Shown: one piece after another, positions 25,657 to 30,358 of the stretch
Layout: each line of letters starts with the position of its first letter
How positions within the stretch are numbered: the stretch's first letter is position 1
DNA from: Pseudomonadota bacterium
Lineage (GTDB): Bacteria; Pseudomonadota; Gammaproteobacteria; Burkholderiales; Gallionellaceae
Length of the DNA: 64,000 nt
Reading direction: 5' to 3'
Assembly (NCBI GenBank): GCA_021783995.1
Contig: JAJXTH010000001.1
Span: forward strand, 1 to 64,000
The notes under the pieces: generated by a model
Told to the model about the DNA's origin: nothing
Databases searched by the model: none
What the model saw: only the letters and a program-made list of their open reading frames with translations
Position numbers and translations under genes: made by a program

Positions 25657-25735
25657 ATCGGCATAGGGTGCAGCCATAGTGACTACGCCCCTGCCACACC
25701 ACCCGGCATGCGGGTCCGCACCGGGCGGTTGAAAC
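25657..25735 (-). mobile_element. Group II intron domain V and VI (3' end)
   Basis: Read on the minus strand, about 25732-25699 forms a 34-base hairpin of domain V type, with arms CCGCCCGG and CCGGGTGG (one G-T wobble), a two-base bulge and a short upper stem. It is followed by GTGTGG, then a second stem (AGGGGC with GCACCCT) ending CCTATGCCGAT at 25657. An intron ending in AY fits this. The end lies 6 bp from the porin stop codon. It is either an isolated remnant or the 3' half of the element whose 5' half starts at 26720. Confidence 0.68.
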
Positions 25736-25818
25736 ATGTGAGTTTGCCAATTAATGAAGCTTGCGATCCGCTTGCTATAGAATCGCATCTTTCTACCTTG
25801 AACAACGGGAACCGTATC

Positions 25819-26340
25819 ATGAGAAGAAAATTCGGACTGGCCGCCTTCGCGGTTGTAGCACTTCTACAGGGATCAGCCTGGGCCGATGCTGAAAACACGC
25901 TGCCTCCCTTGCAGATCGCCCACAGAACGGGCATCAAAGTGGTGATCCAGATCAATGATGCGGGCGTGATGCAGATGAACGGCATAAGCCGTCAGGTGAT
26001 GGCCGCCAAAAACCTTCATGACCAGTATGCCGCACTCGGGATGAAGCCAGGACAGGATTACGTGATCGTCATGGTGTTCAGAGCCGCAGGCTCGCAGTTC
26101 CTGCTGACCGACAATGCATATGACGCGAAATCCAGGATTCCGCATGAGAAGGGAAACCCCAGCCGCGCAATCATAGAAGCGCTGCAGAAAGATGGCGTCA
26201 AGATGTACGAATGCGGCGTCGCGATGAAGCTGATGGGATATCAGCCTGATGACATCATGCCATTTGCGCGCGTGGTCGCATCGGGAATCGGCGCGATTGT
26301 TGACTTCGAGCAGTCTGGATATTCCGAAATCACCCCGTAG
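25819..26340 (+). CDS. Periplasmic DsrE-like protein (first copy)
   Basis: A 173-residue exported protein with a signal peptide (cleavage AWA, about residue 22) and a DsrE/DsrF-like fold: KVVIQIND at the first strand, NLHDQYAALG in the helix, then VIVMVFRAAGSQFLL. The only cysteine of the mature protein lies in YECGVAMK, the position of the sulfur-carrying Cys in DsrE-type proteins. It is preceded by GGGA 8 bases before ATG 25819. The gene is bracketed by group II intron pieces that read on the opposite strand. The likely role is sulfane-sulfur binding in the periplasm, inferred from family and neighbours. Confidence 0.82.
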   Translation: MRRKFGLAAFAVVALLQGSAWADAENTLPPLQIAHRTGIKVVIQINDAGVMQMNGISRQVMAAKNLHDQYAALGMKPGQDYVIVMVFRAAGSQFLLTDNAYDAKSRIPHEKGNPSRAIIEALQKDGVKMYECGVAMKLMGYQPDDIMPFARVVASGIGAIVDFEQSGYSEITP

Positions 26341-26766: not shown

Positions 26767-27270
26767 TCAGTTCATCGGATCTACGACGAAGTGCTTCTTG
26801 GCCTGCAGGTAGGCAACTTCCGCGAAGCCGGAAGGAACGATGTCTGCATCCGTCACATTGTAGAGCGTGTGGAAATCAATGCCCTGTTCTGCCAGAGAGT
26901 TGTTGCACACTTCGAAATGCACGCCCTTGCTTCTCAGCATGTCGATCTGCTTCTGCACTTTCTCGTCCGGGTTCTTCAAAAGTGTCAGACCCTTGGCATA
27001 CAGCACAACTGTCACCTCGAACTTGCCCTTCCACTCGTCGACCGCCTTCAGGCCGTTGGCGATGTTGCGCATCTTCATGCCCTGCACACCCTTGTCGTCG
27101 GTCGTGATAGGCACGACAACCTTCAGCACGCCATAGGACTCATGCTGGATGTTGGGCTTGACGTAGTTGCTTGCAGCTTCAGCACCAGCATCTGCGGCGA
27201 AGGAGGGAAGCGCTACAAACCCCAAGGAAGAAGCGAGAACGGTAAGTGCGAGTTTTTTATACAGTTGCAT
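26767..27270 (-). CDS. Periplasmic DsrE-like protein (second copy)
   Basis: A 167-residue exported protein: signal peptide to SFA (about residue 25), then a DsrE-like fold with LKVVVPITTDD, NIANGLKAVDEW, VTVVLYAKGLTLL and a single mature cysteine in FEVCNNSLAEQG. That Cys position matches periplasmic DsrE family proteins. AGGAGA lies 5 bases before the ATG. It is the last gene of the run pentaheme cytochrome, binding protein, DsrE. It is clearly diverged from the copy at 25819, so this is not a recent duplication. It probably carries sulfur released by, or fed to, the thiosulfate enzyme (inference). Confidence 0.85.
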   Translation of the reverse strand: MQLYKKLALTVLASSLGFVALPSFAADAGAEAASNYVKPNIQHESYGVLKVVVPITTDDKGVQGMKMRNIANGLKAVDEWKGKFEVTVVLYAKGLTLLKNPDEKVQKQIDMLRSKGVHFEVCNNSLAEQGIDFHTLYNVTDADIVPSGFAEVAYLQAKKHFVVDPMN

Positions 27271-27318: not shown

Positions 27319-28290
27319 CTACTTTTTCACTGCCTTGAATCCATACTGCTCGAAAACGGCGAGCCCTGAAGGCGAGTTCAGGAAGTCTACCCATTTCTTT
27401 GCACCCCCCGGATTCTTCGCGCCCTTCACCACTGCCGCGGCATAGATTCCTGTTGCATTCTGCTCGTCAGGAATCGCCACATGGCTGATCGGATTCCCCA
27501 CCTTTTCTTCAAAGATCGCCTCGGACTGCCATGTCACGCCTGCATCAGCCTTGCCCTGCATCAGATAGAGCGGAGACTGACGGTGATGGATGTGGGTGAG
27601 CAGCGTCTCGCCATTCTTGACTTTCGTCTCGTAAACAGCCTTTACGAGTTCCGCCCCACCCGCCTTGTTCAGACTGGCCTTGATCTGGCGCCCTATCCCT
27701 TCGAACTCGGGGTTGGGCATCACGAGACGCACGCCTGGCTTGCCGAGATCGTTCAGGCTCCTGATATGCGCAGGATTTCCCTTGGGCACCATGATGGTCA
27801 GCGTATTGGTCGCATAGGTCACGATGGGCGCATTCACATAGCCTTCCTTCAGCATGCTTTCGACTCTCTTCAGGCCGGCCGCATACACGTCAGCCTGCAC
27901 GGTCCAGGTCATGTTGCCCACGGTGATCGTGCCGCCCATCTGGATTTGCTTCGCAACCAAGCCGGGAGGAATCGTCTCGTAATAGATCTTGCCCTTGTAT
28001 TCTGGGTTCTGCTTCTCGAACTCCGCCACCAGCGGCGCCATCGCAAAGAAATAGTTACCGCCGACAAAGACCGCCAGCTTGTGGTCCGTCAGATTGCCGT
28101 GGAAGTCGGGCAAGTTGTCGACTTCAGGAACTGTGAAATCCATCCCTTTGTCCAGAGTCGGATTGTTTGCACCGCGGCTCCAGGGAGGGTATACGCCAAG
28201 CTCATTGTCTGCTGCATGGGCCGCGCATGTAAACGCAATCGCCGCGCAGGCAAAAAGCAGCCCTTTAAATTTCGACTTCAACAACATCAT
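27319..28290 (-). CDS. Orphan periplasmic substrate-binding protein (ModA-like fold)
   Basis: A 323-residue type 2 periplasmic binding protein with a signal peptide (cleavage AHA, about residue 26). Typical fold marks are KLAVFVGG at the first strand, NTLTIMVPKGNPAHI at the hinge, RLVMPNPEFEGIGRQIK and the ModA-like GKADAGVTWQSEA. A histidine-rich THIHHRQSP segment in the second lobe is unusual. No permease or ATPase gene is near. It lies between the pentaheme cytochrome (43 bp upstream) and dsrE (48 bp downstream), so it may hold an oxyanion or a metal for that system. AAGGAG lies 6 bases before the start. Confidence 0.82.
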   Translation of the reverse strand: MMLLKSKFKGLLFACAAIAFTCAAHAADNELGVYPPWSRGANNPTLDKGMDFTVPEVDNLPDFHGNLTDHKLAVFVGGNYFFAMAPLVAEFEKQNPEYKGKIYYETIPPGLVAKQIQMGGTITVGNMTWTVQADVYAAGLKRVESMLKEGYVNAPIVTYATNTLTIMVPKGNPAHIRSLNDLGKPGVRLVMPNPEFEGIGRQIKASLNKAGGAELVKAVYETKVKNGETLLTHIHHRQSPLYLMQGKADAGVTWQSEAIFEEKVGNPISHVAIPDEQNATGIYAAAVVKGAKNPGGAKKWVDFLNSPSGLAVFEQYGFKAVKK

Positions 28291-28333: not shown

Positions 28334-30358
28334 TCAGTACCTTGAATCCTTGGGCTTTCCACCATTCGGCCAGTCGTGAACCTTGTCCGAAAAATCCGGA
28401 CGGGGCATGTGCGTGAAATACTCGCCGACATCGACCGCCTCCTGATCAGTCAAACCGCCCTGTCCCAGAGGGAAGTTCATCGTGTTGGCCATAGGCATGT
28501 TGCTCTTTGCAAACGCAGCCCCCGTATAGGTCTTCGCAATACCTGCGCCGACATTGAAGGACTGGTCTCCCCAAAGCGGCGGGAACACGAAGCTGCCGTC
28601 TGCCCGCTTCATCCCTTCGCCATTGTCGCCGTGGCAGACCGCACACTGATCCTTGTACACCTTCTTGCCGTTTTCGACATTGGGAAGGATGCTCTGGCTG
28701 ATCTTGCCCACACCGCGCCCGGGAATGGGTTTGTCCTTCTGGGCATCACCCTTCATGTTATCCATGAACGCGATCATCGCAATCATTTCCTTGGAATCCT
28801 TGTCCAGCACCTTGCCGTTCATAGAGCGCCTCATGCAGCCGTTGACCCTGTCCTTGAAATCGATCACCTTGCCGGCGCGAGGATTATAGGAAGGGAACAT
28901 AGCAGAAAGCCCAACATAGGGCGCGGCATGAGCCACCGAACCCCCAGCCAGATGGCAGCTGTTGCAGTTAAGCACATCGCCCACATTGTCAGGCAGCATC
29001 TTCTTCGTCTGATACATGAGCCGCATGCCGTATATCAGCTGGTCCGCATTCGCTTTGCTTAGCATGTCCGCAAAGCGGGGAGCGGCGAATTTGGAAGGCT
29101 CGACGGGCTTCAACTCGATCTCATCGCGCACCTTCTTGATCTGATCCGCAGTCACAGGCTCTCCCTGATTTCCCCACTTGGTGCGCACGAAAGTCACGAT
29201 CTCCGCGAGTTCCTTGTCGTTCAGACTGCGATAGCTGGGCATGCCGAAGGCGCGCTTTGCAGACTGGGTTTCAGGCGACATCCATCCGCTTAACACCACA
29301 TGGATGACGGAGGTCGGATCCTTGGACTGAACGGAAGAATTGTCAGCCAACGGAGGGAAGATCTTCTGTATCCCTCTGCCATCCATCTGGTGACAGGTGG
29401 AACAGAACTGCACATAACCCAGACCGCCACGCGTCTTGTACAGTTCATCATCCTTCGCCAGCACCGCGCCCTTCGGCTTCAAGGCCTCCGACTCGGAACC
29501 GGGTGTTAGCGAACTGATATATTCGCCCATCGCAGCGAGATCGCCGTCAGTGAAATTCTGTGTGCTGAAATGCACCACTTCGGTCATCGTGCCATAAGCT
29601 GTCGCATGACTGTTGTAGCCTGTCTTCAAAAACTGGGCAAGCTCCGGGCCAGACCACTGGTTGCGCAGATTGACCGCATGCCATCCTTCAACCGTCGCGC
29701 CCGTCAGGAAGTATTTTCCATCGCCGCCGTCCTGGCTCATGGTCTTTTCCTGGAAGGCAATACCGCGCGGGGTATGGCATGAACCGCAGTGGCCCAGCCC
29801 CTGCACGATGTAAGCGCCGCGGTTCCATTGAGCAGATTTCTGAGAATCGGCCTTGAAGGGCGTGTCATCGAGGAAAACCAGATTCCAGATTTTCAGGCCG
29901 AAGCGCATGCTGAACGGCCACATCATGTCGTTTTCCTTGTTCGGCTGACTCACCGGCTCAACGCCATGCATGATGTAGGCGTAAAGCGCGCGCATGTCGT
30001 CCGCAGAGGTCTTCGCAAAGGAAGGATAGGGCATCGCAGGATAGAGATTGTGGCCGTCTTCAGCCACACCCTTGCGCATCGCGCGATCGAACTGCTCGAA
30101 GGTATAACCGCCGATTCCGGTTTTTGCATCCGGCGTGATGTTGGTGGAATATACGGTGCCGAAAGGCGTCTTCAGACCCAGGCCGCCCGCCATGGTCTTG
30201 CCGCCCTTGGCCGTATGGCATGCAACGCAATCGCCGAGATGAGCGAGATACTCGCCCCGCTTGACCTGATCATTCTGAGTATCGGCAAAGGCCGTGTTCA
30301 ACAAAATCGCCGGAAGTACAACGCCAAACCAGCCCATCAGCCTTAATCCAAACGCCAT
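28334..30358 (-). CDS. Pentaheme cytochrome c: AdhB-like triheme domain fused to thiosulfate dehydrogenase (TsdA)
   Basis: A 674-residue exported protein with a signal peptide to about residue 25 and five CxxCH sites at about 44, 191, 319, 465 and 572. Residues 30-405 resemble the triheme cytochrome subunit of alcohol dehydrogenases. Residues 430-674 form a full TsdA module: CNSCH, then the catalytic heme-ligand Cys (about 508) in RVNGCMRRSMNGK, CAVCH, LWGDQSFNVGAG and the second-heme ligand Met in NMPM. TsdA couples two thiosulfates to tetrathionate. TsdA alone is about 270 residues; known TsdB-TsdA fusions have a shorter partner. ATG 30358 with GGAGGG is preferred over TTG 30361. Five hemes in one chain suggest internal electron relay. 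Confidence 0.9.
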   Translation of the reverse strand: MAFGLRLMGWFGVVLPAILLNTAFADTQNDQVKRGEYLAHLGDCVACHTAKGGKTMAGGLGLKTPFGTVYSTNITPDAKTGIGGYTFEQFDRAMRKGVAEDGHNLYPAMPYPSFAKTSADDMRALYAYIMHGVEPVSQPNKENDMMWPFSMRFGLKIWNLVFLDDTPFKADSQKSAQWNRGAYIVQGLGHCGSCHTPRGIAFQEKTMSQDGGDGKYFLTGATVEGWHAVNLRNQWSGPELAQFLKTGYNSHATAYGTMTEVVHFSTQNFTDGDLAAMGEYISSLTPGSESEALKPKGAVLAKDDELYKTRGGLGYVQFCSTCHQMDGRGIQKIFPPLADNSSVQSKDPTSVIHVVLSGWMSPETQSAKRAFGMPSYRSLNDKELAEIVTFVRTKWGNQGEPVTADQIKKVRDEIELKPVEPSKFAAPRFADMLSKANADQLIYGMRLMYQTKKMLPDNVGDVLNCNSCHLAGGSVAHAAPYVGLSAMFPSYNPRAGKVIDFKDRVNGCMRRSMNGKVLDKDSKEMIAMIAFMDNMKGDAQKDKPIPGRGVGKISQSILPNVENGKKVYKDQCAVCHGDNGEGMKRADGSFVFPPLWGDQSFNVGAGIAKTYTGAAFAKSNMPMANTMNFPLGQGGLTDQEAVDVGEYFTHMPRPDFSDKVHDWPNGGKPKDSRY

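Follow-up and report, generated by a model that had tools for sequence, protein, structure and literature searches.

Here we describe a pentaheme fusion protein from a member of the Gallionellaceae, encoded in a 64,000-nucleotide stretch of DNA (GenBank assembly GCA_021783995.1, contig JAJXTH010000001.1, positions 1 to 64,000; hereafter the window), in which a triheme cytochrome of the AdhB/FdhC type is joined to a complete domain of the thiosulfate dehydrogenase TsdA. The fusion is recurrent in many proteobacteria, where both halves are conserved as a unit, and the protein probably acts in the periplasm as an oxidoreductase of thiosulfate and tetrathionate that carries a three-heme relay of its own. 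A sequence-only reading of the window had placed five CxxCH sites within 28334-30358. Indeed, the 674-aa fusion protein carries them at residues 44, 191, 319, 465 and 572 of one intact open reading frame (ORF). That reading gave no strand; the plus-strand translation of the interval contains 6 stops, and the gene lies on the minus strand (Table 1). As the protein starts with a hydrophobic segment, residues 2-20, which is the sole one above threshold in a simple hydropathy scan, it is likely to be exported, and to work as one periplasmic protein.

We set this domain order against the possibility that two genes had been merged through a frameshift or an assembly error, which the sequence-only reading had named as a danger near 29,100. 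Genes of the same order lie unfused in other genomes (see below), and a lost stop between such neighbours could mimic a fusion. However, a scan of genome contigs revealed a five-CxxCH ORF at 75 of the 78 loci of named genomes, including records titled complete (L064, L066), and the flanking gene order of the fusion is kept in close relatives. The frameshift or assembly join was therefore rejected and we give it next to no weight; the order recurs in relatives, as the earlier reading had required, and is not peculiar to this genome. In one of the 75 (L094) a contig end cuts the ORF after the fifth motif, while the remaining three loci either run off contig ends (L099 and L106) or stop early (L083). 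Taken together with other sources, our collection holds 98 fused locus rows, equal to 86 distinct sequences with the window's own included, some of which share a species.

The N-terminal part of the protein resembles a triheme dehydrogenase subunit and not the TsdB partner, in agreement with the earlier assignment. Among solved structures, the leading match for residues 14-412 is to quinoprotein alcohol dehydrogenase, namely its triheme cytochrome subunit (8gy2_B, E 1.3e-106, 361 bits); subunits of glucose, fructose and aldehyde dehydrogenases come next. Pfam finds three Cytochrom_C stretches in the fusion protein, and residues 14-412 are predicted to hold three heme c domains of the AdhB/FdhC fold. 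Conservation was read from an alignment (A1) of the window's copy with 65 of the 78 genome-contig loci, the other 13 having been omitted as partial, broken or near relatives of kept rows. The checked Cys and His residues of the three triheme motifs are invariant in its 66 rows, as are the candidate distal ligands Met109, Met258 and Met373.

The C-terminal part bears the hallmarks of TsdA that the sequence-only reading had ascribed to it. Residues 427-662 match TsdA of Allochromatium vinosum (4wqc) at E 3.3e-43, or 4.7e-44 with the C-terminal part alone, and more weakly the TsdA part of the Marichromatium purpuratum TsdBA fusion (5LO9). The Pfam family SoxA-TsdA_cyt-c scored above its cut-off (45.2 versus 27 bits), and among the 16 NCBIfam models listed for the fusion protein none reached its cut-off. 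In the 4wqc alignment, Arg109, Arg119, Cys123 and Ser127 of the A. vinosum precursor correspond to R494, R504, C508 and S512 here (PMC4423706). In that source Ser127 is described as invariant across TsdA and missing from SoxA, whereas Arg119 is common to TsdA and SoxA. Cys508 sits in the motif N-G-C-M-R-R-S and N-M-P occupies residues 620-622; two heme c sites, the predicted Cys ligand, the equivalents of Arg119 and Ser127 and the predicted heme-2 Met are all present. We then looked at 82 relatives, counted as distinct matches to the TsdA domain that span 170 residues or more, with the window's copy, L083, L094, L099 and L106 excluded. R494, R504, C508, S512, K618, M621 and the checked TsdA heme Cys and His residues are invariant in 82/82, while position 620 holds N in 79 of them and D in the other 3. 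The catalytic Cys, whose loss in relatives had been raised as a concern, is therefore universal in this set. Hence a complete TsdA domain is retained in the fusion family, with its predicted active site intact.

Comparison with known systems sets the fusion apart from each of them. It has the catalytic Cys, both Arg, the Ser and the heme-2 Met in common with TsdA of A. vinosum (4WQ7/4V2K) and Campylobacter jejuni, and it also has the K-x-N-M of C. jejuni TsdA at heme 2 (Lys252, Asn254, Met255; PMC5146829); unlike the fusion, however, both of these are free-standing diheme proteins. The TsdBA fusion of M. purpuratum (5LO9) has a diheme acceptor, whereas here the acceptor is a triheme unit of about 400 residues; the three CxxCH and the AdhB-type match of residues 14-412 leave no diheme TsdB-type acceptor in that part. 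In comparison with the triheme subunits 8GY2_B, 7W2J_C and 8GY3_A of alcohol, fructose and aldehyde dehydrogenases, a TsdA domain comes after the end of the subunit match, and there is no hydrophobic segment beyond the N-terminal one. By sequence, then, the AdhB-type triheme module takes the place of the diheme acceptor of TsdBA, in a recurrent arrangement. An AdhB-TsdA fusion was not named in our literature search, judged mostly by titles and the starts of abstracts.

Because alcohol, glucose and fructose dehydrogenase subunits are its closest solved structures, the triheme half might still serve an organic (alcohol or sugar) dehydrogenase, with the TsdA half as a minor or detoxifying passenger. 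We consider this very improbable. A Pfam scan of 13 neighbours in the interval from 20 to 35 kb of the window, the only part of the genome searched to this end, found no dehydrogenase of the pyrroloquinoline quinone (PQQ) or flavin type; the sole dehydrogenase there is of the short-chain NAD(P) type. Furthermore, the checked TsdA residues do not vary among the relatives, and the triheme domains of the fusions form a clade of their own (see below).

How might such a protein work? TsdA joins two thiosulfates into tetrathionate by a route that includes a Cys S-thiosulfonate and has its exit at heme 2 (PMC4423706), and the reaction is reversible (PMC5146829; PMC6879331). Going by the biochemistry of TsdA, the heme ligated by Cys508 would turn two thiosulfates into tetrathionate by way of a cysteine S-thiosulfonate, or run the reverse reaction, and the electrons would then move to the His/Met heme 2 (H576/M621) and from there to the heme trio of the N-terminal domain. 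This domain would stand in for a separate or fused diheme TsdB. An AlphaFold model of the protein (predicted template modelling score 0.80) resembles both parent folds and, loosely, the TsdBA fusion 5LO9; the model keeps both folds, and a built-in electron relay is the natural reading of the fusion. Onward from the triheme domain, electrons may pass to a soluble periplasmic carrier feeding an oxidase, or to ubiquinone as with AdhB-type subunits. A terminal-oxidase route is possible; a quinone route is possible too because AdhB-type subunits hand their electrons to ubiquinone (PMC9171043). That TsdA is wired to a quinone-reactive AdhB-type triheme module, which would make a single-polypeptide thiosulfate:quinone (or quinol:tetrathionate) oxidoreductase, we nevertheless regard as doubtful. 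For an outer-membrane electron route, which the sequence-only reading had also suggested, nothing was found in support.

As to direction, we lean, if only a little, towards net thiosulfate oxidation in this organism. It is weakly favoured because SoxA and SoxB of the organism's own genome score above cut-off, because that genome also gives matches to the COX1 family (heme-copper oxidase) and none to cytochrome bd, and because Candidatus Gallionella acididurans is its nearest species-named relative. The TtrS-like neighbours found in relatives, together with the reversibility of TsdA, still leave room for tetrathionate reduction. The protein might work mostly in the opposite direction, as a respiratory tetrathionate reductase that needs no molybdenum, electrons passing from ubiquinol or a reduced cytochrome to the triheme domain, then to heme 2 and finally to tetrathionate at the Cys-heme. 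In favour of this, TsdA of Campylobacter acts as a tetrathionate reductase (PMC5146829), and electrons are exchanged between AdhB-type subunits and ubiquinone (PMC9171043). In relatives, a kinase with a PhnD-like periplasmic domain and a response regulator lie within 4 kb of 18 of the 86 distinct fusions, and annotation places a kinase and a response regulator beside the fusion on Thioclava, Ideonella and Rhizobium plasmids. For a representative of the kinase (L074), the best of 72 families was the tetrathionate kinase TtrS (NF040750, E 5.8e-91, nearly full length), and a TtrS-like kinase stands beside 14 of the 68 distinct fusions that have 4 kb on both sides, tying part of the fusion family to tetrathionate. 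However, at 305.7 bits the L074 kinase falls short of the cut-off of 750 and is TtrS-like rather than a proven TtrS, while for the response regulator FixJ gives the higher score (195.7 bits, against 141.3 bits for TtrR), both under cut-off. Moreover, TtrRS of Vibrio parahaemolyticus drives tsdBA, which oxidises thiosulfate (PMC11293645), so a TtrS-like sensor does not fix the direction. With the SoxA/SoxB and COX1-family proteins of the own genome also on the other side, and no TtrS-like gene adjoining the window's copy, we see a mainly reductive role as a lesser possibility.

We next consider the origin of the fusion. An adhB-like triheme gene followed directly by tsdA is found in at least four of the 397 genomes of our phylum sample (G303, G565, G653 and G400, the G653 pair being read from match coordinates alone) and on a Paracoccus versutus plasmid. 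These pairs have the same parts in the same order as the fusion but make two separate proteins, each with an N-terminal hydrophobic segment in the three pairs scanned (G303, G400 and P. versutus). Trees were built after thinning of the fusions, with 90 of 127 rows for the TsdA domain (A. vinosum and C. jejuni TsdA not included) and 69 of 108 for the triheme domain. In the TsdA-domain tree, 46 fusions form one clade (98/93) to which four unfused-pair rows (100/95) are sister, both together at 100/99; 37 of the 40 solo TsdAs stand apart (99/99), and the other three (L011, L016 and L112), all long branches, fall on the fusions' side. In the triheme-domain tree 47 fusions again form one clade (100/99). 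A single origin of the fusion family is therefore well supported.

Several observations weigh against our preferred reading of the fusion or limit it. In the triheme-domain tree the unfused pairs cluster with solo AdhBs (98/97) and not with the fusions. Although a common clade of fusions and pairs in this tree was not rejected by the approximately unbiased (AU) test (p-AU 0.139), the two trees differ, and together they do not show that the fusion arose from the pairs. A TtrS-like gene nearby is just as compatible with the reduction of tetrathionate, and 54 of the 68 well-flanked fusions have none. The heme-2 motif K-x-N-M was considered as a pointer to the reductive direction and rejected, since Asn precedes Met in 38 of 40 solo TsdAs too. 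Around the fusion gene in the window there is neither a TtrS-like gene nor a clear-cut thiosulfate gene. In the AlphaFold model, the predicted local distance difference test (pLDDT) is below 50 at residues 106-110, which hold the candidate ligand Met109, and at 222-226, 476-478 and 629-633. Finally, of the 37 genomes in the genus sample just 5, the own genome included, have the protein at close to full length, and so it is not core to the lineage.

The fusion is nevertheless widely spread. Hosts in the genome-contig scan include Gallionella, Zoogloea, Thauera, Rhodoferax, Delftia and Comamonas, and further Burkholderia, Cupriavidus, Polynucleobacter, Pseudomonas and Methylobacter; the closest relative with a species-level name, Candidatus Gallionella acididurans (L035), is 75% identical. 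At least 5 of the 397 phylum-sample genomes carry the fusion. The class sample gave a TsdA-like match in 41 of 276 genomes, with a frame of fusion length for the window's alone. Plasmids gave 591 records with a match at E <=1e-30, and in 11 of them the match spans 80% of the query or more; 8 of these 11 label the gene 'c-type cytochrome' or 'cytochrome C', and 3 give it no label. Four of five plasmids examined carry the fusion, the fifth being that of P. versutus with its unfused pair. A scan of IMG/VR with the family alignment returned 39 stretches and 1 relative (L174), which is partial, 38% identical, placed at the extreme end of its contig and possibly host DNA. Some single copies deserve mention. 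The Pseudomonas kielensis copy (L083:7905-9491) has 529 aa, four CxxCH and an early stop, apparently a broken gene. L148:4312-4548 (G120) is a 79-aa remnant matching query residues 609-673 only, at the TsdA end; it is probably a decayed copy and adjoins a gene resembling a DNA methylase (here and below, names of the methylase-like, RND-like and tsdB-like kind at other loci were assigned by eye unless a family scan is given). Metagenome-assembled genomes named Porticoccus (L045) and Rhodocyclaceae (L047) have the same fusion sequence, and one of them is therefore probably mis-binned or mislabelled. In a different five-CxxCH protein (L010:1495-3402, G039), which has no TsdA match, an AdhB-like triheme domain is preceded by some 260 residues that carry two CxxCH. 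The own genome also encodes, on contig C25 (L176:5568-6044), a single-heme SoxA/TsdA-like cytochrome directly after genes like those of resistance-nodulation-division (RND) efflux.

Table 1. Positions in the window of the fusion gene, its domains and predicted functional sites, and two neighbouring genes.
Feature	Positions	Strand	Remarks
Pentaheme AdhB-like/TsdA fusion gene	28334..30358	minus	674 aa, stop codon included; ATG at 30358, TGA 28334-28336
Likely export signal, hydrophobic N-terminus, about residues 1-25 (by eye)	30284..30358	minus	hydropathy segment 2-20; pLDDT <50 for 1-25
Triheme AdhB/FdhC-like domain, residues 30-412	29123..30271	minus	
Heme c motif 1, C44-H48	30215..30229	minus	C44 and H48 in 66/66 rows of alignment A1
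Heme c motif 2, C191-H195	29774..29788	minus	
Heme c motif 3, C319-H323	29390..29404	minus	
TsdA domain, residues 427-662	28373..29080	minus	
TsdA catalytic heme motif, C465-H469	28952..28966	minus	
Cys508, predicted ligand of the catalytic heme (Cys123 of the A. vinosum precursor)	28835..28837	minus	4wqc alignment; 82/82 relatives; PMC4423706
TsdA electron-transfer heme motif, C572-H576	28631..28645	minus	
Asn620-Met621, Met the predicted heme-2 distal ligand	28496..28501	minus	Met in 82/82 relatives, Asn in 79/82; PMC5146829
Solute-binding protein (SBP_bac_11, PF13531), next gene downstream; possible functional neighbour	27319..28290	minus	signal-like N-terminus
DsrE-family protein; possible functional neighbour	26767..27270	minus	export-signal-like N-terminus, one Cys

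Two genes next to the fusion are possible functional neighbours (Table 1). The solute-binding protein shows a distant likeness to sulfate and molybdate binders; its nearest named model is modA (55.5 bits, cut-off 62.5), and no transporter permease was seen adjoining it. Such a protein lies within 4 kb of 11 of the 86 distinct fusions. One of these 11 (L181, G488) comes from another class in the phylum; there the binding protein has 69% identity and the fusion is about 60% identical to that of the window. DsrE proteins are usually regarded as cytoplasmic sulfur carriers. For the DsrE-family neighbour, the search of solved relatives gave one weak match only; a second DsrE-family protein, with an export-like N-terminus and likewise downstream of the fusion, is encoded at 25708-26340 on the plus strand, and both have one Cys past the signal region. 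The remaining scanned neighbours in the window are of housekeeping type. At other loci the fusion stands close to further tsd genes. The Zoogloea locus (L054) runs ttrS-like, ttrR-like, fusion, tsdB-like, tsdA. In G555 the fusion has a tsdB-like and a tsdA gene in divergent orientation to it, and it is followed by a YeeE/YedE-like gene (under cut-offs).

To conclude, the fusion would add one more type of electron acceptor to the two known for TsdA, separate TsdB and TsdBA, and its unfused gene neighbours offer a setting in which the recruitment of a triheme acceptor can be studied. If a quinone-linked fusion were to prove true, it would be a molybdenum-free respiratory enzyme of thiosulfate or tetrathionate, placed in some lineages under a tetrathionate-sensing two-component system. 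The TsdA site is intact throughout the family, whose hosts include Gallionella, Zoogloea, Thauera, Delftia, Cupriavidus, Pseudomonas, Burkholderia, Thioclava and Rhizobium; if the fusion is active, surveys for stand-alone TsdA may under-count the turnover of thiosulfate and tetrathionate.
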